Source: Armatimonadota bacterium
GTDB lineage: Bacteria > Armatimonadota > Fervidibacteria > Fervidibacterales > Thermosaccharophagaceae
DNA: 46,598 nt
NCBI GenBank assembly: GCA_025062195.1
Contig: JANXAS010000025.1
Location: 1 to 46,598, forward strand
Direction of reading: 5' to 3'
The number at the start of each line of letters is the position of its first letter. Positions within the stretch are counted from its first letter, which is position 1. Of this stretch, positions 8,643-22,165 are shown piece after piece. The notes under the pieces are model-generated. The model did not search any database. It was not told where the DNA came from and saw nothing but the letters and a program-made list of their open reading frames with translations. The translations under genes and the position numbers were made by a program.

Positions 8643-8659
8643 AAAGTGCACATCACTTT
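8643..8659. terminator. Possible short bidirectional hairpin between convergent genes
   Basis: AAAGTG (8643-8648) and CACTTT (8654-8659) can pair with a 5-nt loop between the stop codons of the oxidoreductase gene and selB. The stem is short and no strong T-run follows, so this is a weak candidate. Confidence 0.25.
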
Positions 8660-10608
8660 GATGCTCCTTCCATTTGCTGTTGCTCCTTAGCAGCTTTTGA
8701 GCGCAGTATACGGCAGTCGCCGAGACGCTGAGTGAAACCTATGCGATCAAGGTGTTCAAGGATTGGCGTAGCATACTTCCTTGTAATACCGGCCATGTCC
8801 CTGAATTCAGCCACCGTTATTTTGCCGTGCCTTTCTATGTGCTCACCAACAAGCTGCTTTGCGCGCTCTATAACATGGGGATGAAAGACAAACTCTTCAA
8901 CGAGCACAAGTTGCCCGCTCTCAAGAAGGGCGTGAAAGACTTCCATTGCACTATCTCGCTCGTTCGCGAAGTGCTGCATCAATTCGTTGAGTGACGGCGG
9001 TGAAAAACCGGCATCGGCACACAGCTTGAGCATTTCGTTTGCTATTTCCAGATACTGCCCACTGAGTGATGGGGAGTGAGAACTCAGCCGAACAAGCTCA
9101 CGCTCAATTGTTACATCGCCCTCCTCTTGAAAGCGCGTGAGTAAAAGCTCAAGTGTGGCTTCGTCAGTGACGCTGCTCATCTGTCCAAAAAGCACCCCTT
9201 TTCTCATACCCATGTGCAGCGGATGCGCCTCATGATGTGAACGTAGGAGTGATAGCAATTCATCCTTTGCAGCCTTGTAAGAGACTGGTGAGATATAAAG
9301 TTCGTCATTGAGTTTGATAGCGCTGCCTCGTTCTTGCAGCCTGTCAAGCAGTTCTTTAGTGCGCTCTTTTGTTATGTGAAGCAGCACCGAGAGTTCTCTT
9401 GTGCTTAAACCATTTGCGTTCTCTTCAAGCAGCATTTGGGCAGCATCCTCATAACTGCCAGTTGACTTTCGCACACAGCTCTCCAAGTAGCGTGGCGAGC
9501 GCCTGCGATACCTTGGCGGATACGGTTCAACGATTGTGCCACCGCCGATTGTTTCAGCCGGAGAGTATGAGCGTATGACGAACCGGTCGTAGCGCACACA
9601 TGCCAAGTGTTCATCTGTGCGCAACTCAGCAAATGTGTTTTCTCCGGGAGCAAGCTCATCCCCGGAAATTAGAAAAATTCTTGCGACCCACTCGCCAGTC
9701 CCAATGTGAAGGCGCACTGGTGAACCATCCTTTAGCGGTTTCTTCACATTAGGCAATAGGCGCACATTAACGGCTATACGATTGGTCGGCGGAATATAAC
9801 CAACTTCGGTGACAACATAACCTCGTTCAATGCTTTCTCGCTCAATGCCAGTTAGGTTCATTGCCACGCGCTGCCCAGCAAATGCCCTCTCAACACTTTG
9901 CCTGTGAACTTGCATGCTGCGGACGCGGGCTCGGATGCCGATTGGTGATATCTCAACTTCCTGTCCAACGCTCACATTCCCGGAGAAGGCTGTCCCGGTG
10001 ACGATCACGCCAAAGCCGGCTTTGATAAATGCCCTGTCTATCGGCAACCTGAATGGGCGCTCCATTTCCTTCTTGGGCTTGAAATCTTTCGCCCTCTGTT
10101 GGATGAGTTTCACAAGTTCATCCAATCCATTGCCAGTAACTGATGAGACAGCAACAACTGGCGCCCCATCAAGAAATGTCCCTTTGAAATGCTCACGCAC
10201 ATCTTCAATGACGAGTTGCAACCACTCTTCATCAACCAAGTCGCGCTTCGTGATAACAATGATGCCGTCGCGCACATCAAGCAATTGCAGTATGTTGAGG
10301 TGCTCAACCGTCTGTGCCATCACACCTTCATCGGCAGCTACCACCATAAGAACCAAATCCATTCCGGCAGCACCGGCAAGCATGTTGTGCACGAAGCGCT
10401 CATGCCCGGGAACATCAACTATTCCCACAATCCTTCCATCTGGGAGCCTGAAATATGCGAATCCAAGGTCAATGGACATGCCGCGCCTTTTCTCCTCGGG
10501 AAGCCTGTCGGTGTCTATTCCAGTTAAAGCCTTTATGAGTTCTGTCTTTCCATGGTCAACATGCCCGGCAGTGCCTATGATAAAGTAGCCGCATTGCTCA
10601 CTCGCCAT
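8653..10608 (-). CDS. selB: Selenocysteine-specific translation factor SelB
   Basis: SelB delivers Sec-tRNA to ribosomes at UGA codons next to a SECIS hairpin. The protein (about 651 aa from ATG 10608) has an EF-Tu-like GTPase with G1 GTAGHVDHGKT, G3 DVPGHERFVHNML and G4 TKRD. These are followed by domains II and III and a C-terminal part made of repeated winged helices, which bind SECIS RNA (for example SLNELMQHFANERD and KITVAEFRDMAGITRKYATP). The frame is open further upstream, but SelB proteins usually begin a few residues before FIIGTAGH, so ATG 10608 is preferred; GGGGTG lies about 10 nt upstream. No selA, selD, tRNA-Sec gene or obvious selenoprotein lies in the window, so the rest of the pathway must be elsewhere. 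Confidence 0.94.
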   Translation of the reverse strand: MASEQCGYFIIGTAGHVDHGKTELIKALTGIDTDRLPEEKRRGMSIDLGFAYFRLPDGRIVGIVDVPGHERFVHNMLAGAAGMDLVLMVVAADEGVMAQTVEHLNILQLLDVRDGIIVITKRDLVDEEWLQLVIEDVREHFKGTFLDGAPVVAVSSVTGNGLDELVKLIQQRAKDFKPKKEMERPFRLPIDRAFIKAGFGVIVTGTAFSGNVSVGQEVEISPIGIRARVRSMQVHRQSVERAFAGQRVAMNLTGIERESIERGYVVTEVGYIPPTNRIAVNVRLLPNVKKPLKDGSPVRLHIGTGEWVARIFLISGDELAPGENTFAELRTDEHLACVRYDRFVIRSYSPAETIGGGTIVEPYPPRYRRRSPRYLESCVRKSTGSYEDAAQMLLEENANGLSTRELSVLLHITKERTKELLDRLQERGSAIKLNDELYISPVSYKAAKDELLSLLRSHHEAHPLHMGMRKGVLFGQMSSVTDEATLELLLTRFQEEGDVTIERELVRLSSHSPSLSGQYLEIANEMLKLCADAGFSPPSLNELMQHFANERDSAMEVFHALLESGQLVLVEEFVFHPHVIERAKQLVGEHIERHGKITVAEFRDMAGITRKYATPILEHLDRIGFTQRLGDCRILRSKAAKEQQQMEGASK

Positions 10609-10759
10609 CTCGCTGTCACACCCCATTAGCAACATCTCAACCCAATAGGTCGTCAAATTTCAACTGGCAGACAGTTCAGGGCTAAAGCCAATCCTACCAG
10701 TTGTCAAACAGATTATGCAATAATGAAGTGTAGCGTTGCATTTATGCATGGTGATGAAC

Positions 10760-11938: not shown

Positions 11939-14113
11939 ATGCTGAGCAAAGTAAGGTCAGCTGCGGAGATAGATGAATTGCAAGTCCCATGGAAAAATGC
12001 CTCTATGGCAATGCCGGCATACGGATGCGCATTTGTAGTGGCTTATTCGGCATTGCTTGCATCGGCTTCAACTATTGACGCACCGCTGTTTGGCAGCACA
12101 GCTTTTGTGCTTGGGGCGCTCGGGCTGCTTTCAAACTATATTCGCTCAGTCGGCAGTTCAAAGGGACAGCATTATTTTGGGCAAGCCATGTCACTCACAC
12201 TTGTTGTCCTCTTGCCACTGTATGGGCTCATCATAGACCCGCACCGTTTTTTTCCACCAATCGTATTTGAGTTTCGTGACTATCATCCGCTCGCTTTGAT
12301 GACATGGGTGTGCGTTATAACCCTAACAGTCACGGGCAGGTGGGGCAATAACGAATATGCTCCGCTTTCGTTTGTGCTTTTGCCGGCGCTCTCAATGATT
12401 GCGCTCTCCGCACCACACAACATCAACATTGAAGTGACAGTTGCAACCCTCTTTATAGTCATCTTTGGCACATTCCTTCTGGCGTATGAGACGACGGTGA
12501 TGCGCGCCTCAAAGCTCGGCGATGAAGATGTGCTTAACGAACGCTCGCTTATCGGCTTCCACATATATTCCGGGGCACAGTGGAGTTTGGTCATCCTGCT
12601 GGTGAGTTCGCTATTGGCGCCTTTGCTTTTGCTCATCAGGTTGCCCATTGCTCCGCCAAATGTCCGTCTGCCATTGCCGAGAAGGTATTTCATAGTCAGC
12701 CCCGAGTTCACGATATTCTCACGCCATATGAGCTTGTGGGGCGGTCCAATAAATCTATCGCCAAGGAAGGTGTTTGAAATAAGGGGTGACTTTTATCCGT
12801 ATTGGCGGGCACAAATTTACGACGAATACACTGGGCATGGTTGGCAGTATAACGAGGATGAAGACCCAATCCCGGCTGAGCAAATTGACTATGGAGTTTA
12901 TAAGTTCAATGTGAGTATGCCGCCGCATCCGAAGATCGTGAGCGCCACAGTGACAGCGCTTGGGATGCGCCCATCAGTTTTCCTAACACCCGGAACTACC
13001 CTCATTCTGGAGGTGGAGGGTCTATTACCGGAGTTGCGCCTCTCACATGGCGGTGTGCTCAGGGCATACAAAGTTGGCTTCTCGCCACAGGTTTACAAGA
13101 TTGTAGCTGCTATCAACGACCCGCCTCTGGATGCCATGCGAAGTGAAAGAACTGCATACAATGACTTGAGCCGTGATGAACTCTCAAAGTATCTGAGACT
13201 GCCCTATATCCCGCAAAGGGTGATAGACCTTGCAAGGCAAGTTGTGTCCAGTGCCAAAACACCGTATGAGAAGGCGATGCTCCTCGCCGAATACTTAAGG
13301 AAGAATTATCGTTATTCTCTCTCGCCACCGCATGTGCCTATGGATGCCGATGCGGTTGATTTCTTCCTCTTTTGGTCACGAGAAGGTGCTTGCAACTTCT
13401 TTGCAAGCGCGCATGCTGTCATGTGCAGAGCTGTAGGTATACCGAGCAGAGTTATAACTGGTTTCATGAGCGATGAATACGACAGTAAGCAACGCTTGCT
13501 CATTATTCGTGAGCGAGACGCACACGCATGGGTTGAAGTTTACATCCCAAAACATGGATGGGTCATAGTAGACCCCACGCCACCATCAAGGAGCCGTATA
13601 CCGGTGTGGGATATCGCTGCTTGGTGGCGTGAATTGCGCTCACACATAAAGTGGCGCTTTGCTCAAAGGTTGTTCCTCTGGGTCGTTGGATTGCTCGCTG
13701 TCATTTCTGCAGTGCCGATGCTGCGCCATCAATTGCGAATATTCAAAAAGAGGTTTGCAGGCATTCGCTTGACACCGGGACATCGCCTTAGCAATTCATA
13801 TGCCGCATTGGTGCGTGAGCTGTGTCGCCTCGGCTTCAGGTGCGAACCGCACCATACACCGCTGCAGATAGCTTCTGTGCTACGTGCGTATCAGTGCAGT
13901 GAACCTATAAAAAGCACCCTTATCAATGCCTCTCGGCTTTTACAACACCTTTCGGTGCTTGCCTACTCCCCGATTGGGTTCAATGAGGCAAATGTTTCTG
14001 AGTTTGAAGCCGAAGCAAAAAGGCTCATCTGGCGGATGAGGTGGCATTGGCTCTTGACTTCACTCCGACGATTTCAAAAACTTCTATCGGTTCGGAGAAG
14101 CCGCGCACTGTGA
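11939..14113 (+). CDS. TgpA-type membrane transglutaminase-like protein
   Basis: This 724-aa protein has about six N-terminal membrane helices, a large periplasmic domain, a transglutaminase-like core, one more helix (about residues 578-596) and a C-terminal DUF4129-like tail. The Cys-His-Asp triad is intact: Cys485 in REGACNFFA, His529 in RDAHAWVEVY and Asp545 in VIVDPTPP. In TgpA this domain faces the periplasm and has cysteine-peptidase or transamidase activity. The start is ATG 11939, six nt after the DUF58 stop and with GGTGTGA upstream, so the two genes form an operon. Its last 89 bp overlap the 3' end of the adenylate cyclase gene on the opposite strand, which is unusual. Confidence 0.9.
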   Translation: MLSKVRSAAEIDELQVPWKNASMAMPAYGCAFVVAYSALLASASTIDAPLFGSTAFVLGALGLLSNYIRSVGSSKGQHYFGQAMSLTLVVLLPLYGLIIDPHRFFPPIVFEFRDYHPLALMTWVCVITLTVTGRWGNNEYAPLSFVLLPALSMIALSAPHNINIEVTVATLFIVIFGTFLLAYETTVMRASKLGDEDVLNERSLIGFHIYSGAQWSLVILLVSSLLAPLLLLIRLPIAPPNVRLPLPRRYFIVSPEFTIFSRHMSLWGGPINLSPRKVFEIRGDFYPYWRAQIYDEYTGHGWQYNEDEDPIPAEQIDYGVYKFNVSMPPHPKIVSATVTALGMRPSVFLTPGTTLILEVEGLLPELRLSHGGVLRAYKVGFSPQVYKIVAAINDPPLDAMRSERTAYNDLSRDELSKYLRLPYIPQRVIDLARQVVSSAKTPYEKAMLLAEYLRKNYRYSLSPPHVPMDADAVDFFLFWSREGACNFFASAHAVMCRAVGIPSRVITGFMSDEYDSKQRLLIIRERDAHAWVEVYIPKHGWVIVDPTPPSRSRIPVWDIAAWWRELRSHIKWRFAQRLFLWVVGLLAVISAVPMLRHQLRIFKKRFAGIRLTPGHRLSNSYAALVRELCRLGFRCEPHHTPLQIASVLRAYQCSEPIKSTLINASRLLQHLSVLAYSPIGFNEANVSEFEAEAKRLIWRMRWHWLLTSLRRFQKLLSVRRSRAL

Positions 14114-16007
14114 CCTTCCCAATGGGCTTTAGTTCAACCACACCCTCAACTTTTCTCGCTGTCTGTGCGCATATTAGGATTGCAGCACCTGTCTCCTTAG
14201 TCAATGCCTGCAGCCTTGAAGCTAAATTGACTGGGTCACCAAAAGCTGTGTATTGGAATCTGTCAAGCGCCCCAAAGTTGCCTACAGATGCAATTCCAGT
14301 GGCTATGCCAATGCCTATTCTTAGCTGCGGGTCTCCCCTCTCAAGCCACCTTTTAGAGAGCGATTCTGCCGTAGCGCGCATTTCAAGTGCAGCCATGACA
14401 GCGTTCAAAGCATATCCATCCGTTGGCATCGGTGCACCAAATAGAGCCATTATCTCATCGCCGATGAACTTATCAACGAATCCGCTATGGCGCTTTATCA
14501 CATCCGACATAACTGTGAAGTATTCAGTCAGAAGTTTTGTGAGCCGCTCAGCACCAAGGCGCTGCATTGTTGCTGTGAAGTCTCTTATATCAGCAAAGAG
14601 CACGCTCACCTCTCTATCCTCACCGCCAATGGCTGCCAACTCCGGATAGCGAGCCAACCTCTCGGCTATCTCCCCGCTAACATAGAGAGCAAACAGATTC
14701 TTCATGCGCCTATGTTCCCTGCCAACGCTGAAGTATCCCCAAGATGTAACAAGAGCGTATGAGAGGACTATGCCAGCATATACCGGAGAGGCGCTGATGA
14801 TAATGTTGGCTGAAAAGGATTTCAAACACAGCAATGTCACTATGCAGACCGAAGCTATAGTGGCCAGAAGGGCAAGTAGTGCATTGATTCGCGGAAGCAT
14901 CCAAGAGAGGAGCACAGGGATGACAAGAGCAAGCAACATAATAAAGCCGTGTGGCAGACGGCGAAAATGTTGCCGATGGACAAGCGTGTGTATTGCGTTA
15001 GCCAAAATCTCAACCCCATATGTGTATTGGCTAAATGGCGATGGACGGATATCATAAAGCCCTTCGGCGGTGAATCCAACTACGACAATCTTGCCGGCAA
15101 ACTCTTTCTTGCTAACCTTCCCCGAATACACAAGATGATATGGCAACTTATAAAATGCATCCCTGCCACCAATGAAATTGACATCCATGAGCCAGTTTGC
15201 CCCTACAGTCGGAACAAAACTATCGCCGAGCATTACACCGCCTTTGAGGAATTTGACTTCTTCCCTGTTCAAGTTGAGTGCTGCCCTTGCAGCCTCAATG
15301 GTGATGCTCGGTAATACGCGAAGTCCCCCCTCTTCATTGCTCCCGCATTCAACCGGTGTTCCCAACGGCAACTGTCTATATATGCCTGTTGTGTCTGGGT
15401 TTGAGTGGGCTATTCCAATGCCCTTGCATCCGACAAGGAAAGATGTTATTGGAGCTCTAAGTCTCAAATGCGCATCTGATGCCTTTGCCGCAATTCGTTC
15501 CATAAAAGATTTATCAATGCCCTGCGGCAGGGCATATGAGAGCTTGCACAGAGCCATCTCAAGCGCTTTCCATTCGTCGCTATTAGCCTCTGCGGGATGT
15601 GGTTCATCAAGGCGCAGCACCGGCAAGATGACATTGCCGCATTTGGCTATAGCATCGCTCAATAGCCTATCATCATCTGGGCGCTCTCTATCAGGCTCAA
15701 CAAACAAGATGTCTATGACTACGGCTTTAGCCAACTTTAGTTGTTCCAAAAGTTTTGCGTGTGTCCTTCGCCTCCATGGAAATCTGCCGAGCTGCCTTAT
15801 GCTTTTGTCGTCTATCGCAATGATGACTATATCATCAGGTGAAGGCAGTTCGCCGCGCAGCAGGAACCATTGCTTTATAAGCCAATCCTCAAACTGCGGT
15901 ATAGGTGGCAATCGCAGCAGATAAAGAACACAAACCAAGATGCCGCTTACAATGCCGAGTGCAACGCTGACTCGCTCATATCGCTGTTGCATTGTTGGGG
16001 CGCTCAA
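14025..16007 (-). CDS. CHASE2-domain adenylate/guanylate cyclase
   Basis: This 660-aa protein has one N-terminal membrane helix, a long extracytoplasmic CHASE2 sensor (about residues 35-340, with the typical start DIVIIAIDDKSIRQLGRFPW), three membrane helices and a C-terminal class III cyclase. The cyclase keeps its two metal-binding Asp residues (FADIRDFT), the KFIGDEIMALFG segment and the transition-state Asn and Arg (FGDPVNLASRLQ), so it should be active. It would turn an outside signal into cyclic AMP (or cyclic GMP) in the cytoplasm. The start is probably TTG 16007 with GAGGGTG 8 nt upstream; ATG 15992 is an alternative. It follows the FecR fusion gene by 77 nt on the same strand, and CHASE2 cyclases are often found with FecR-domain proteins. 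The 3' end overlaps the convergent transglutaminase gene by 89 bp. Confidence 0.92.
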   Translation of the reverse strand: MSAPTMQQRYERVSVALGIVSGILVCVLYLLRLPPIPQFEDWLIKQWFLLRGELPSPDDIVIIAIDDKSIRQLGRFPWRRRTHAKLLEQLKLAKAVVIDILFVEPDRERPDDDRLLSDAIAKCGNVILPVLRLDEPHPAEANSDEWKALEMALCKLSYALPQGIDKSFMERIAAKASDAHLRLRAPITSFLVGCKGIGIAHSNPDTTGIYRQLPLGTPVECGSNEEGGLRVLPSITIEAARAALNLNREEVKFLKGGVMLGDSFVPTVGANWLMDVNFIGGRDAFYKLPYHLVYSGKVSKKEFAGKIVVVGFTAEGLYDIRPSPFSQYTYGVEILANAIHTLVHRQHFRRLPHGFIMLLALVIPVLLSWMLPRINALLALLATIASVCIVTLLCLKSFSANIIISASPVYAGIVLSYALVTSWGYFSVGREHRRMKNLFALYVSGEIAERLARYPELAAIGGEDREVSVLFADIRDFTATMQRLGAERLTKLLTEYFTVMSDVIKRHSGFVDKFIGDEIMALFGAPMPTDGYALNAVMAALEMRATAESLSKRWLERGDPQLRIGIGIATGIASVGNFGALDRFQYTAFGDPVNLASRLQALTKETGAAILICAQTARKVEGVVELKPIGKVTVRGFSEPIEVFEIVGVKSRANATSSAR

Positions 16008-16084
16008 CCCTCTATCACCCTCTCATGCCCTTAGAGTTACAGTGGAGATAGCATATTTAAAGGAAGCCTGCCAAGGGGGTTCTC

Positions 16085-18223
16085 TCACTGTTCGCCGCCT
16101 TGTGGCTTACTCTCGCCCTCCTCTCGCTCAATCTCTCTGAGTTGTGAATCCCATTCTTCAAGCATGCGTTGTGCCCTTATGCCCCACTCGCTATGTGGGT
16201 CTTCTTCAACGATTTTGTGAAGCAGTTTCCTCGCATCATCAAATTGCCTCTGCTGCACATACAAGTGCACTAAGCCGAGCATTTGAGATTGCCTATCCCA
16301 GAGAGCTTTCCTTTGCTCTTCAAGGCGCTCAAGGTGAAAGATGTATGCGCTGAAGATGCTGAAGGCAATTAGCACGATGCAAAGCACAATCCAACCCCTT
16401 TCAAGCAAGTTGTTTCTCCATGCCCTTCTCAGCTCTGTTAAAATCAATTTGTGCAAGGTCGCAAACTCAGCGCGCAACGATGCCAGGATATTTTCGGCAA
16501 TGCGCATCTTCCTGATAGCTTTTGTGATCCTGCTAACAAGGGCTTCCTCGCCGGAGGTGATTGTTTCTGCACCTCTCGGCAAAAGTGCCGTGACTGCGCC
16601 ATCAACGACCGCCACATTTGCTTCACCGCCTTTAACAAACGCCCTGAACTTTGTCCCGCGCACACCGAGGACTGCAGCTGGAGTCTCAATTGAGTAATCG
16701 GTTGGACGCTCAAGATAACGCTTTATCCACCCCCATAAGTCTCCCGAACGAAATTCAAATCTCGTATTGGGTATGCCAGTGCTCATATCGTCAATTGAGA
16801 GCAAAGCAAATTCTGATCTGCCGCGCACATCCACTGTGCTTCCATCGCTGAATCTGAGGAGTAATCGTGCGCCCTCTCCGAGACGCAATTTTGTGCCCTC
16901 GCTTAACAGCTGCCGGTGCACCACAGGCTGCCAAGGCGCCTTATCATCAATTTGAAGTTCAACATTGCCTACAGGCTGCAGTGCCATAGCGAAGTGCGGT
17001 GGCACCCTATTTACAGCGTAGTAGCTGAAGGTGGCATAGCATGCAAAGACGATTGCGCAGCATGCAAGGAACATATAAAATAGTGTGCGAGCCATCTTCG
17101 TCCTATCAAGCTCCTCTCCCCATAAGCGCACAAGGAATCGCTTCCATGCACCTTTCAAATCTTCAAGGGTGGCTCGTTTCAAATCATCCATAAATACCGA
17201 GACGAACAGGAGCAAAGCTACAATTGGTAGCCCAGAAAGCGGCAAACGCAGTTCCTCGCAGAGATACAGAATGACCGCAAGCAATGCCCCACCGAGGAGC
17301 GCCGAACCGATGCCACCTATGTCTCCGGAAAGTGTTGTGCCACCGATTAGCGCTCCAACAAGTGGCGCAAGTATCCATGTCCAATCGGGCGCAAGTGGCT
17401 GTGCAGTCACATTACTTCCGGCTGCGCCGAGCACGCCGACAATGCCCGCAATCAATCCGCTGAAGATATAGACTGGCTCAACCCAGACACGCTCAACACT
17501 CACAGCAACTTGGCGGTGTCTTCTTGGGGCAACCCTTGTCAACTCTCGCAGCCAAACGAAATAGAAAGCGAGCACAACAAGTGCCACAACAAGTGCTGGT
17601 AGCGGAATGCCATAAATGCTTCCACGGCACAAGAATGCGAAGAGTGAATCTTCCCAGGTTTGTGGCAGCTTGCCGCGAGTTGAGATGGCAAGGTAAAGGG
17701 CTAAAGCACCGGTTGTTAGAGTCGTTATCGCCTTTGGCATGGGCACGATGCCAACTGCAACGGCGTTAATTAGCCCCATAAGGACGCCAGCAACGAAGCC
17801 GCCGGCAACAGCAGCGCTAACATCAATCGGTAAAAGAAACAAGGCTACAGTTCCAGAGAGCATAGCAGTTGCACCGATTGAAAGGTCAATGCCACCCTGC
17901 CCAAGGACGGTATCTACTGCCACAGCACCGAGAATAAGAAGTGAGGCACGAATGATGAGCAAAGAGAGAGCCTCACCACTTGGGCGAAGTATTGCCACCA
18001 TACCGAGCAGCAGCACAAAGGCGAGCAGTGCAAACCATTGATATGGAGGCACCTCGGCAAGATACCTCGTCAAGCTTGTTCTAAACACAACCACAAGTGG
18101 CTGTGCAATGACTGTTGATGATGGTTGCACCGCAGCGCCCTTTAACGGCGCATAGCATCGCCAGCATATAGATGCGCGCACGGCATTATGGGCGCCGCAA
18201 CTTTTGCAAACTAAAGTCTCCAT
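16085..18223 (-). CDS. Zinc-ribbon / sugar-permease-like / FecR / helical-tail fusion protein
   Basis: This 712-aa protein joins parts not normally found together. Residues 1-25 form a cytoplasmic zinc ribbon (Cys6, Cys9, Cys20, Cys23). Residues 60-345 form a multi-helix domain like the RbsC/BPD_transp_2 permeases, including GQGGIDLSIGA and GGTTLSGDIGGIGSALLGG. A helix at about 380-403 leads to a FecR domain at 415-550 (TPAAVLGVRGTKFRAFV). A second helix at 610-628 leads to a helical, TPR-like tail (645-695). The FecR part should be outside the membrane and both ends inside. The start, ATG 18223, has GGGTGGGTG 7 nt upstream. No ABC ATPase or sugar-binding protein is nearby, so transport is doubtful. 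The next gene is a CHASE2 cyclase, which suggests joint signalling. The fusion is seen directly; its function is inference. Confidence 0.8.
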   Translation of the reverse strand: METLVCKSCGAHNAVRASICWRCYAPLKGAAVQPSSTVIAQPLVVVFRTSLTRYLAEVPPYQWFALLAFVLLLGMVAILRPSGEALSLLIIRASLLILGAVAVDTVLGQGGIDLSIGATAMLSGTVALFLLPIDVSAAVAGGFVAGVLMGLINAVAVGIVPMPKAITTLTTGALALYLAISTRGKLPQTWEDSLFAFLCRGSIYGIPLPALVVALVVLAFYFVWLRELTRVAPRRHRQVAVSVERVWVEPVYIFSGLIAGIVGVLGAAGSNVTAQPLAPDWTWILAPLVGALIGGTTLSGDIGGIGSALLGGALLAVILYLCEELRLPLSGLPIVALLLFVSVFMDDLKRATLEDLKGAWKRFLVRLWGEELDRTKMARTLFYMFLACCAIVFACYATFSYYAVNRVPPHFAMALQPVGNVELQIDDKAPWQPVVHRQLLSEGTKLRLGEGARLLLRFSDGSTVDVRGRSEFALLSIDDMSTGIPNTRFEFRSGDLWGWIKRYLERPTDYSIETPAAVLGVRGTKFRAFVKGGEANVAVVDGAVTALLPRGAETITSGEEALVSRITKAIRKMRIAENILASLRAEFATLHKLILTELRRAWRNNLLERGWIVLCIVLIAFSIFSAYIFHLERLEEQRKALWDRQSQMLGLVHLYVQQRQFDDARKLLHKIVEEDPHSEWGIRAQRMLEEWDSQLREIEREEGESKPQGGEQ

Positions 18224-18419: not shown

Positions 18420-19016
18420 ATGCGCAAATTGACATTAGCCGATGTTTGTGTGGCGGCGCTCCCAATTGCCCTACCGTTCTTTAGTGAGCTATCACTTATA
18501 TTGCTTGGTAGCATATCTTTGATAGTGCTCTCACAGGTGCGCATACCGCTACCGTTTACCCCCGTGCCAATAACGCTTCAGACACTCGGCGTGCTTCTTA
18601 TCGGTCTATCGTTTGGCTCGTTGCGCGGTTCTGTCACAGCTGCTGTTTACATTGTGTTTGGTGCTATTGGTGTGCCTGCTTTTGCTGGTGGTGCTTGTGG
18701 ATGGAAACATTTGTTCGGTCCAACTGGTGGCTACTTGTTTGGGTTCGTTGCAGCGGCATGGCTTGTTGGACGCCTCGCCGAGTTGCGCTGGGATAGAAGC
18801 TTTTGGCTCACATTCGCATCAACCATGCTTGGAACACTCGTTATCTACGTATTTGGGGTTGCATGGCTCTCCTGCTTTGTCGGTATAGAACGCTCCTTAA
18901 CTATGGGTGTCCTTCCATTCATACCCGGGGACATCATCAAAGCATTAGTTGCCGCTGCTGTGCTGCCGTCTGTTTGGAGATTAATTGGCACACGATGCGG
19001 CATCAAAAACGAGTGA
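18420..19016 (+). CDS. bioY: Biotin transporter BioY (ECF S-component)
   Basis: This 198-aa membrane protein matches BioY throughout: an N-terminal helix, then QVRIPLPFTPVPITLQTLGV, the GSLRGSVTAAVYIVFGAIGVPAF region, GPTGGYLFGFVAAAWLVGRLAE, and the late motif FIPGDIIKALVAAAVLPSVW. BioY binds biotin with very high affinity and works alone or with an ECF energising module; no ecfA/ecfT genes are nearby. ATG 18420 is supported by GGGGTGATG about 6 nt upstream. The divergent spacer to the FecR fusion (196 bp) must contain two promoters. I did not find a BirA-type biotin operator there. A 44-codon frame begins inside its stop codon. Confidence 0.95.
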   Translation: MRKLTLADVCVAALPIALPFFSELSLILLGSISLIVLSQVRIPLPFTPVPITLQTLGVLLIGLSFGSLRGSVTAAVYIVFGAIGVPAFAGGACGWKHLFGPTGGYLFGFVAAAWLVGRLAELRWDRSFWLTFASTMLGTLVIYVFGVAWLSCFVGIERSLTMGVLPFIPGDIIKALVAAAVLPSVWRLIGTRCGIKNE

Positions 19017-20558: not shown

Positions 20559-21389
20559 ATGGCTCGTCGCAGAGAAGTGCTTAATAACCGAAGCAGTGCT
20601 GAAGGGCAATCGGAGCGCACTGCAAGGCAGCCACAGTGGGTTGGTGAATTCATTATCGTTCCAATAGTTTACCTGGGTGAGGTGGCATTGCTCCTCGCTG
20701 AAACAGTGAGAGCGATGTTTTCCGAGCGCCTGCGTCTGCGCCAACTCGTTGAGCAAATGGACGAGGTCGGTGTCAGGTCATTGCTCATCGTCCTTTTAAC
20801 AGTTTCATCAGCCGGCGTTGTGCTCTCACTATACACGGCAAAGGAGTTGGCAACAAGGGGCGCTGGGCACTTCGTTGGTTGGTTGCTCGCATACACAATT
20901 GCGCGTGAGCTTGGACCGATGGTGACAGCAATCGTAGTTGCCGCAAGGGTCGGTGCGGCATTTGCAGCGGAGATTGGAACGATGAAGGTGACAGAGCAAA
21001 TTGATGCGCTGCGCTCGCTTGCTGTTGATCCGGTTGCTTACCTTGTTGTGCCACGAATGCTTGCGTGCATCATCATGATGCCGGCGCTGACTATGCTTGC
21101 CGATGTTTCCGGGACATTGAGTGGCATGCTCATAGCGAGCACTGTTGGCGTCCATCCGAACATCTTCTTGGATTCAATCAGGAGCTTCTTAACCGTGACG
21201 GACTTAGCCGTTGGATTGATCAAGTCAGTGCCATTCGGCATACTTATCGCCATTGTGAGCTGCCATCAAGGGTTGGAAACGACCGGCGGCGCAATGGGTG
21301 TTGGGAGGGCGACAACAAATGCCGTTGTTCTATCGCTCATCCTTGTCTATGTTGCCGATGTGATAATGTCATCAGTGCTTCCGAAGTGA
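20559..21389 (+). CDS. mlaE: MlaE-family lipid ABC transporter permease
   Basis: This 276-aa membrane protein is the permease of an Mla-type phospholipid transporter. It shows the MlaE family pattern: an amphipathic N-terminal stretch, then [38 protein letters not shown] as recognised in parts ([19 protein letters not shown] and [16 protein letters not shown]), and a C-terminal [19 protein letters not shown]. It begins at ATG 20559, with GGAGGG about 12 nt upstream. Its stop codon overlaps the start of the ATPase gene. The complex would move lipids between inner and outer membranes, which supports a diderm cell. Confidence 0.94.
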
Positions 21390-22165
21390 GGCGGAAAGCT
21401 TTGGAAAAGAATATCTCAAACGAACATGTAATTGAGCTTGAAGATGTGCATTACTCAGTTCCCGATGGAACGGAAGTGCTTAGCGGTGTAAATTTGAATG
21501 TCAAGCGCGGCGAGATAATGTGCGTCGTTGGCGCATCAGGTGCGGGCAAGAGCACGCTGTTGAAATTGATTGCGGGCTTGCTTCGCCCAACATCTGGGAG
21601 TGTGAAGGTGCTCGGGGTTGACATAACTTTTCTCACGGAGAGGCAACTAAATGATGTGAGGAAGCGCATCGGCGTGGTCTTTCAATTTGGTGCGCTTTTT
21701 GATTCGCTTACCGCCTTTGAGAATGTTGCATTCCCGTTGCGTGAACACACCAATATGAGCGAAGATGAGATCAGAGAGCGTGTCTTTGAACTGCTTGATG
21801 CCGTTGGCATGCGCGGCAGCGAACATCTTCTTCCAGCTGAGCTGAGCGGCGGAATGAGAAAGCGAGTCGGCATAGCGAGGGCGCTCGCGTTGGGCCCCGA
21901 AATTGTGCTCTACGACGAACCGACGAGTGGCTTAGACCCAATTATGGCCGGCGCTATTAACAGCTTGATCGCTGATATGAGGGAAAGATATGGCGTGACA
22001 TCGGTCATAGTGACACATGACATACATAGCGCCTTTGAACTCTCTGACAGGATGGCAATGCTGCACGATGGCAGAATACTTGTCTGCGATACTCCCCGTG
22101 CAATCAAGTCAAACCATCATCCATTCGTGCAGAGGTTCATTCACTCTGGTGTTAGAGAAGTGTGA
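21386..22165 (+). CDS. mlaF: MlaF-family lipid ABC transporter ATPase
   Basis: The ATPase partner of the Mla transporter is about 259 aa long. It has Walker [12 protein letters not shown], a Q-loop ([17 protein letters not shown], typical of MlaF), signature [15 protein letters not shown], Walker [14 protein letters not shown] and switch His THD. The frame is open much further upstream, into mlaE, but family proteins start just before [13 protein letters not shown] 21386 overlaps the mlaE stop (GTGA), giving coupling; TTG 21401, with GAGG 9 nt upstream, is a good alternative. The third gene of the unit, mlaD, starts 77 nt downstream. Confidence 0.93.

Follow-up and report, generated by a model that had tools for sequence, protein, structure and literature searches.

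A permease-derived FecR protein encoded beside a CHASE2 cyclase in Armatimonadota, a variant of the FecR and CHASE2 module and a candidate receptor

The permease-FecR fusion gene and its cyclase neighbour

The window, i.e. the whole 46,598-nucleotide stretch of DNA analysed here (contig JANXAS010000025.1 of the Armatimonadota assembly GCA_025062195.1), carries a gene for a 712-aa protein (16085..18223) read as a single unbroken frame from an ATG, and seven full-length homologues support this frame. This gene, its neighbour and all their features lie on the minus strand. The protein starts with a zinc ribbon (residues 1-30; 18134..18223), predicted to be cytoplasmic, which matches DUF7577 with an E-value of 4e-4, under the Pfam cut-off, and whose cysteines C6, C9, C20 and C23 are invariant in all eight fusions. 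An RbsC-type permease core of about 10 transmembrane (TM) helices follows (residues about 56-355; 17159..18058), identified from PRK09512, BPD_transp_2, the structure model and a tree. An extra TM helix found by hydropathy and in the model (residues 374-405; 17009..17104) then leads from the permease to a FecR domain predicted to lie outside (residues 445-544; 16592..16891; PF04773, E 9e-13). This domain is above the Pfam cut-off in the window's protein and was retrieved in all eight fusions by the genome search. The last TM helix (residues 611-629; 16337..16393), defined by hydropathy and the model, is part of a long helix spanning residues 576-657, and a helical TPR-like tail ends the protein (residues 630-712; 16088..16336; TPR_19, E 1.8e-4, under the Pfam cut-off). 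This tail is conserved across the fusion family and is predicted to be cytoplasmic. Pfam scans of the fusions gave no anti-sigma family, their N-terminus being occupied by the zinc ribbon and the permease. The original prediction of a zinc ribbon, an RbsC-like permease, a FecR domain and a helical tail joined in one frame was thus correct in its coordinates, and this architecture is kept in all eight carriers.

Hydropathy analysis of the family gave 10-12 helices, one of them before and one after FecR, with basic loops on the predicted inner side. A first structure model built from 8 alignment rows had a pLDDT of 55.8; with permeases and FecR proteins added, the deeper model (34-row alignment) reached a pLDDT of 80.8 and a pTM of 0.74, and displayed a FecR fold flanked by helices 374-405 and 576-657. 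In Foldseek searches, the FecR part matched the cell-surface signalling domain of PupR (6ovk, E 1.7e-4), and the permease part gave weaker matches to the TM domains of the type II importers PsaC, BhuU and BtuC (E 0.01-0.06). The permease fold of the model is not independent evidence because the deeper alignment included real permeases. Sequence searches against the PDB returned nothing useful. 

The next gene on the same strand, located 77 bp downstream, codes for a 660-aa CHASE2 class III cyclase (14025..16007), with a CHASE2 domain (14925..15935; PF05226, E 1.6e-45) and a catalytic domain (14079..14615; PF00211 Guanylate_cyc, E 2e-20). Both metal-binding Asp, Lys and Thr of the purine site, and the paired Asn and Arg are all there (D, K, D, T, N, R), in agreement with the apparently active enzyme that had been proposed. 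From this full catalytic set, the window's enzyme is straightforwardly predicted to be an active adenylate cyclase, and its product is most likely cAMP. In a consensus scan, a terminator-like hairpin was detected where the cyclase gene ends (14024..14040) and none between the two genes, which makes their co-transcription likely.

Elsewhere in the window, a BioY biotin-uptake gene (18420-19016, plus strand) diverges from the fusion gene, and a gene for the selenocysteine elongation factor SelB lies at 8653-10656 on the minus strand. The window yielded no tRNA gene. The nearest ABC ATPase gene (21065-22165) was considered as a partner of the fusion and rejected, since it is on the other strand and belongs with an MlaE permease.

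Homologues and adjacency in the phylum

When 60 relatives were searched first, a single whole-length homologue emerged, in genome G050; it aligned with the window's protein from ribbon to tail at 29% identity. A profile search extended to 291 Armatimonadota genomes then identified full-length fusions in eight of them, distributed over 4 families and 5 genera (G000, which is the window's assembly, G050, G261, G262, G264, G265, G276 and G290). A deeper profile retrieved the same eight carriers with scores of at least 864 bits, the next match being at 122 bits. Even at about 25% identity, whole-length homologues share both the domain order and the adjacent cyclase gene. At 1e-30, the four other genomes belonging to the window's order gave no match to the fusion, and its spread is therefore patchy. 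Scanning genome contigs with the single protein gave no match, and the alignment-based scan gave two carriers, both among the eight; viral contigs and plasmids contained no relative of the fusion. One carrier is on record as Candidatus Zipacnadia, Armatimonadota. In the genus with close pairs, the permease part has a dN/dS of 0.15, indicating purifying selection.

In three genomes of one genus, an excisionase-type HTH head is present in frame at the N-terminus of the fusion (TIGR01764, E 5e-5, below cut-off; L035:9660-9894(-), L068:2525-2765(+) and the fusion N-terminus of L069). This head is under purifying selection (dN/dS 0.10-0.14), and such a fusion could possibly be a membrane protein with a DNA-binding head.

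A same-strand CHASE2 cyclase gene adjoins the fusion gene in every carrier (8/8), which answers whether the cyclase is always the neighbour. It is upstream of the fusion in seven carriers and downstream in the window's genome, where the order is reversed. The seven upstream cyclases form one clade (100/99), the position of the window's cyclase being uncertain in the tree; a single clade of all eight was not rejected (p-AU 0.062). The reversed order and this uncertain placement leave room for a separate pairing, which may have arisen in the window's lineage.

Each of the seven other partner cyclases has one textbook residue changed: Asn is replaced by Ser in the four enzymes of genus g41 (G050, G262, G264 and G265), a change also common among other CHASE2 cyclases of the phylum, and Lys is replaced by Asn in those of G261, G276 and G290. 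As judged from these residues, the seven enzymes may be less active or may differ in substrate or output. The partner cyclase frame of G261 (L071:10564-13833(-)) has about 450 extra N-terminal residues with no Pfam match.

The permease core and its TM6-TM7 segment

Residues 65-317 match the ribose permease PRK09512 of NCBIfam with an E-value of 2e-10, below the equivalog cut-off, and Pfam BPD_transp_2 matches 7/8 fusions (best E 1.7e-12), the window's own copy being the one without a match. In a tree with 33 ordinary permeases, the permease domains of the fusions form one clade (100/100), within which that of the window has a long branch. The fusions share with RbsC-type permeases (BPD_transp_2, type II importers) the sequence family, the order of the TM helices and the core glycine motifs, and differ from them by the lost coupling segment, by the lack of a linked ATPase or binding protein, and by the added ribbon, FecR domain and tail.

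The coupling segment is the stretch between TM6 and TM7, which we take to be the ATPase contact from the layout of the type II importer BtuC rather than from a solved RbsC structure. In the ordinary RbsC-type permeases of the phylum it reads GRxxYAxGGNxxAAxLSG and is recognisable in 33/33, most of its columns being 74-97% one residue; the permease alignment has 34 rows including a fragment of the window's own locus, which the count of 33 excludes. The segment is lost in all eight fusions. In the window's protein it corresponds to degenerate residues 224-250 (17474..17554), and model confidence is low at residues 232-242. The core glycines, the D-L/F-S/C-x-G stretch and the GG pair are kept in the fusions. 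Judged from its sequence, the permease core of the fusions appears to have no working ATPase coupling segment and, by that criterion, is predicted not to be a working ABC permease. Such a loss matches what is expected from a former transporter turned into a sensor. That the permease fold had become a ligand sensor had been suggested for this locus; the loss of the segment in 8/8 fusions speaks for it, and the ligand-binding part is one that we infer. The fusions are thus a clear example from nature of an ABC importer permease that has lost its motor contact yet was retained within a signalling protein, and over 30 ordinary relatives are available for comparison.

A FecR and CHASE2 module and its possible mechanism

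FecR and CHASE2 genes have been described side by side in several clusters. In Campylobacterota, a CHASE2 cyclase gene is found with phosphodiesterase, FecR and TPR genes (PMC9239204), the BiofilmReg operon of Burkholderiales combines a LysM-FecR protein with a CHASE2 histidine kinase as output (PMC5192318), and in magnetotactic bacteria a CHASE2 cyclase gene comes after mtxA (PMC4439547). Among 15 genomes of the phylum, 45 of the 64 FecR domains have a CHASE2 domain encoded no more than 4.5 kb away; FecR is therefore the usual partner of CHASE2 cyclases, and the association was rightly called a known one. FecR carriers in the phylum comprise short single-helix proteins, chains with an outer-membrane-barrel-like end, and TPR and barrel chains. 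These varied carriers near CHASE2 make the permease-borne FecR one branch of a module often used by the phylum. At two loci (L106:1438-5049(-) and L112:1322-4822(-)), the gene immediately following that of a CHASE2 cyclase encodes FecR joined to TPR repeats and to a barrel end resembling that of a TonB receptor. A Ser/Thr protein kinase-FecR fusion also exists in G002, from the window's order (L119:1702-3846(-)), with no CHASE2 gene found near it.

The pair studied here has the testable defining parts of this module, namely a FecR gene and an adjacent gene for a CHASE2 protein with a cytoplasmic enzyme. It is thus a variant of the FecR and CHASE2 module, and "new signalling system", the term first applied to it, is too strong. 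Its likeness to the published clusters lies in the side-by-side genes for a FecR protein and a CHASE2 receptor-enzyme and, for that of Campylobacterota, also in a TPR protein. In those clusters, however, FecR is reported to be carried by a LysM protein of the outer membrane or periplasm, and TPR by another protein, whereas in the fusion FecR is borne by an RbsC-derived inner-membrane core and the zinc ribbon and TPR-like tail belong to the same chain. What is new in the pairing is the permease core uncoupled from an ATPase. The fusion shares a FecR-type domain with the FecR/PupR anti-sigma regulators, as also reflected in its structural match to PupR, but it has no anti-sigma domain and its operon partner is a cyclase rather than a FecI-type sigma factor. 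The literature searched contained no description of a permease-FecR fusion.

The reading that we favour, with somewhat more confidence than doubt, is that the permease-derived, FecR-bearing protein is a receptor or co-receptor controlling the neighbouring cyclase, the two proteins forming a signalling module. The 712-aa protein would sit in the inner membrane with its ATPase-uncoupled core derived from an RbsC-type ABC importer permease; the extra helix would take the chain outside, where FecR would be placed, and the last helix would bring it back to the cytoplasmic tail. The partner would expose CHASE2 outside, with its class III cyclase on the cytoplasmic side. Whether or not the permease core has a ligand bound could then be relayed by FecR to CHASE2, and the tail may perhaps also signal to the cyclase; this would set the output of cyclic nucleotide, which for the window's enzyme is most likely cAMP. 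We infer ligand sensing, the contact of FecR with CHASE2 and which way control runs. The zinc ribbon and the tail may in addition contact cytoplasmic partners, as had been suggested. The inputs of CHASE2 have been stated to be unknown (PMC5192318), and reports of FecR next to CHASE2 enzymes have come with no mechanism; the permease-derived partner offers a candidate ligand pocket for switching such an enzyme.

The same data could be explained by a permease-derived part that binds nothing and simply tethers FecR and the tail to the membrane, CHASE2 or FecR being the sensor. The other FecR partners of CHASE2 cyclases are on very different carriers (one TM helix, beta-barrel-like, TPR and barrel), as would suit a mere anchor, and the window's copy has diverged too far for the Pfam BPD_transp_2 model. 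However, about ten TM helices with a dN/dS close to 0.15, in which core glycines and prolines are conserved, exceed what an anchor needs, and we consider this explanation unlikely. Still less probable is a facilitator or channel, in which solute would pass through the core independently of ATP and the flux would be reported to the cyclase: the core fold and the GG/DLSxG-type columns are kept, but no transport path is evident in the sequence, and no type II ABC permease is known to us to function in the absence of its ATPase. A precedent for such a transceptor exists in CbrA, an SLC5 symporter fused to a histidine kinase, which transports and signals at once (PMC7096432, PMC13022988). CbrA embodies the same idea of a transporter fold with a signalling output, and the fusion differs from it by an ABC type II fold instead of SLC5 and by FecR plus a cyclase on its own chain, where CbrA has the fused kinase.

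It appears very unlikely that the fusion is a genuine ABC importer subunit whose ATPase gene lies at another locus of the genome. RbsA-type ATPases are present in G000, G261, G262 and G276, none of them adjoining the fusion. Those of the window's genome are on contigs C115 and C137, and C115 carries no BPD_transp_2 permease. The lack of an adjacent ATPase had been correctly noted for this locus, but it is weak evidence by itself because ordinary permeases on C85 and C101 of the same genome also have none in the stretches examined. Stronger arguments are the coupling segment lost in 8/8 fusions and the missing RbsA in several carriers: at 1e-30, no RbsA-type ATPase was found in G050, G264, G265 or G290, and G050, which is 96% complete, has no other BPD_transp_2 protein either, an importer role being therefore unlikely. 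Finally, although the window's genome is a draft of 170 contigs (97% complete), an assembly or frameshift artefact or a chimera joining separate permease and FecR genes can be dismissed, since the frame is continuous in eight separate assemblies, with seven further full-length homologues none of which is split, and, in the genus with close pairs, is under purifying selection.

Returning to the receptor or co-receptor that we favour, a bolder version of it, which we put forward as rather doubtful, would make the fusions the first receptor class derived from a type II ABC importer permease freed of its ATPase. The core would sense a small solute and drive the cyclase via a FecR-CHASE2 contact, in cells without any CRP-type cyclic-nucleotide receptor, and in the one genus (3 genomes) with the excisionase-type HTH head on the same chain, this head may act on DNA directly. 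The cNMP_binding domain (PF00027) is matched in 223 of the 291 genomes of the phylum, and gave no match in 5/8 carriers (G000, G050, G261, G262 and G264), which are draft assemblies in which absence is not proof. Carriers without a cNMP_binding protein raise the question of what reads the messenger. Each of these five genomes has 2-8 CHASE2-domain matches.
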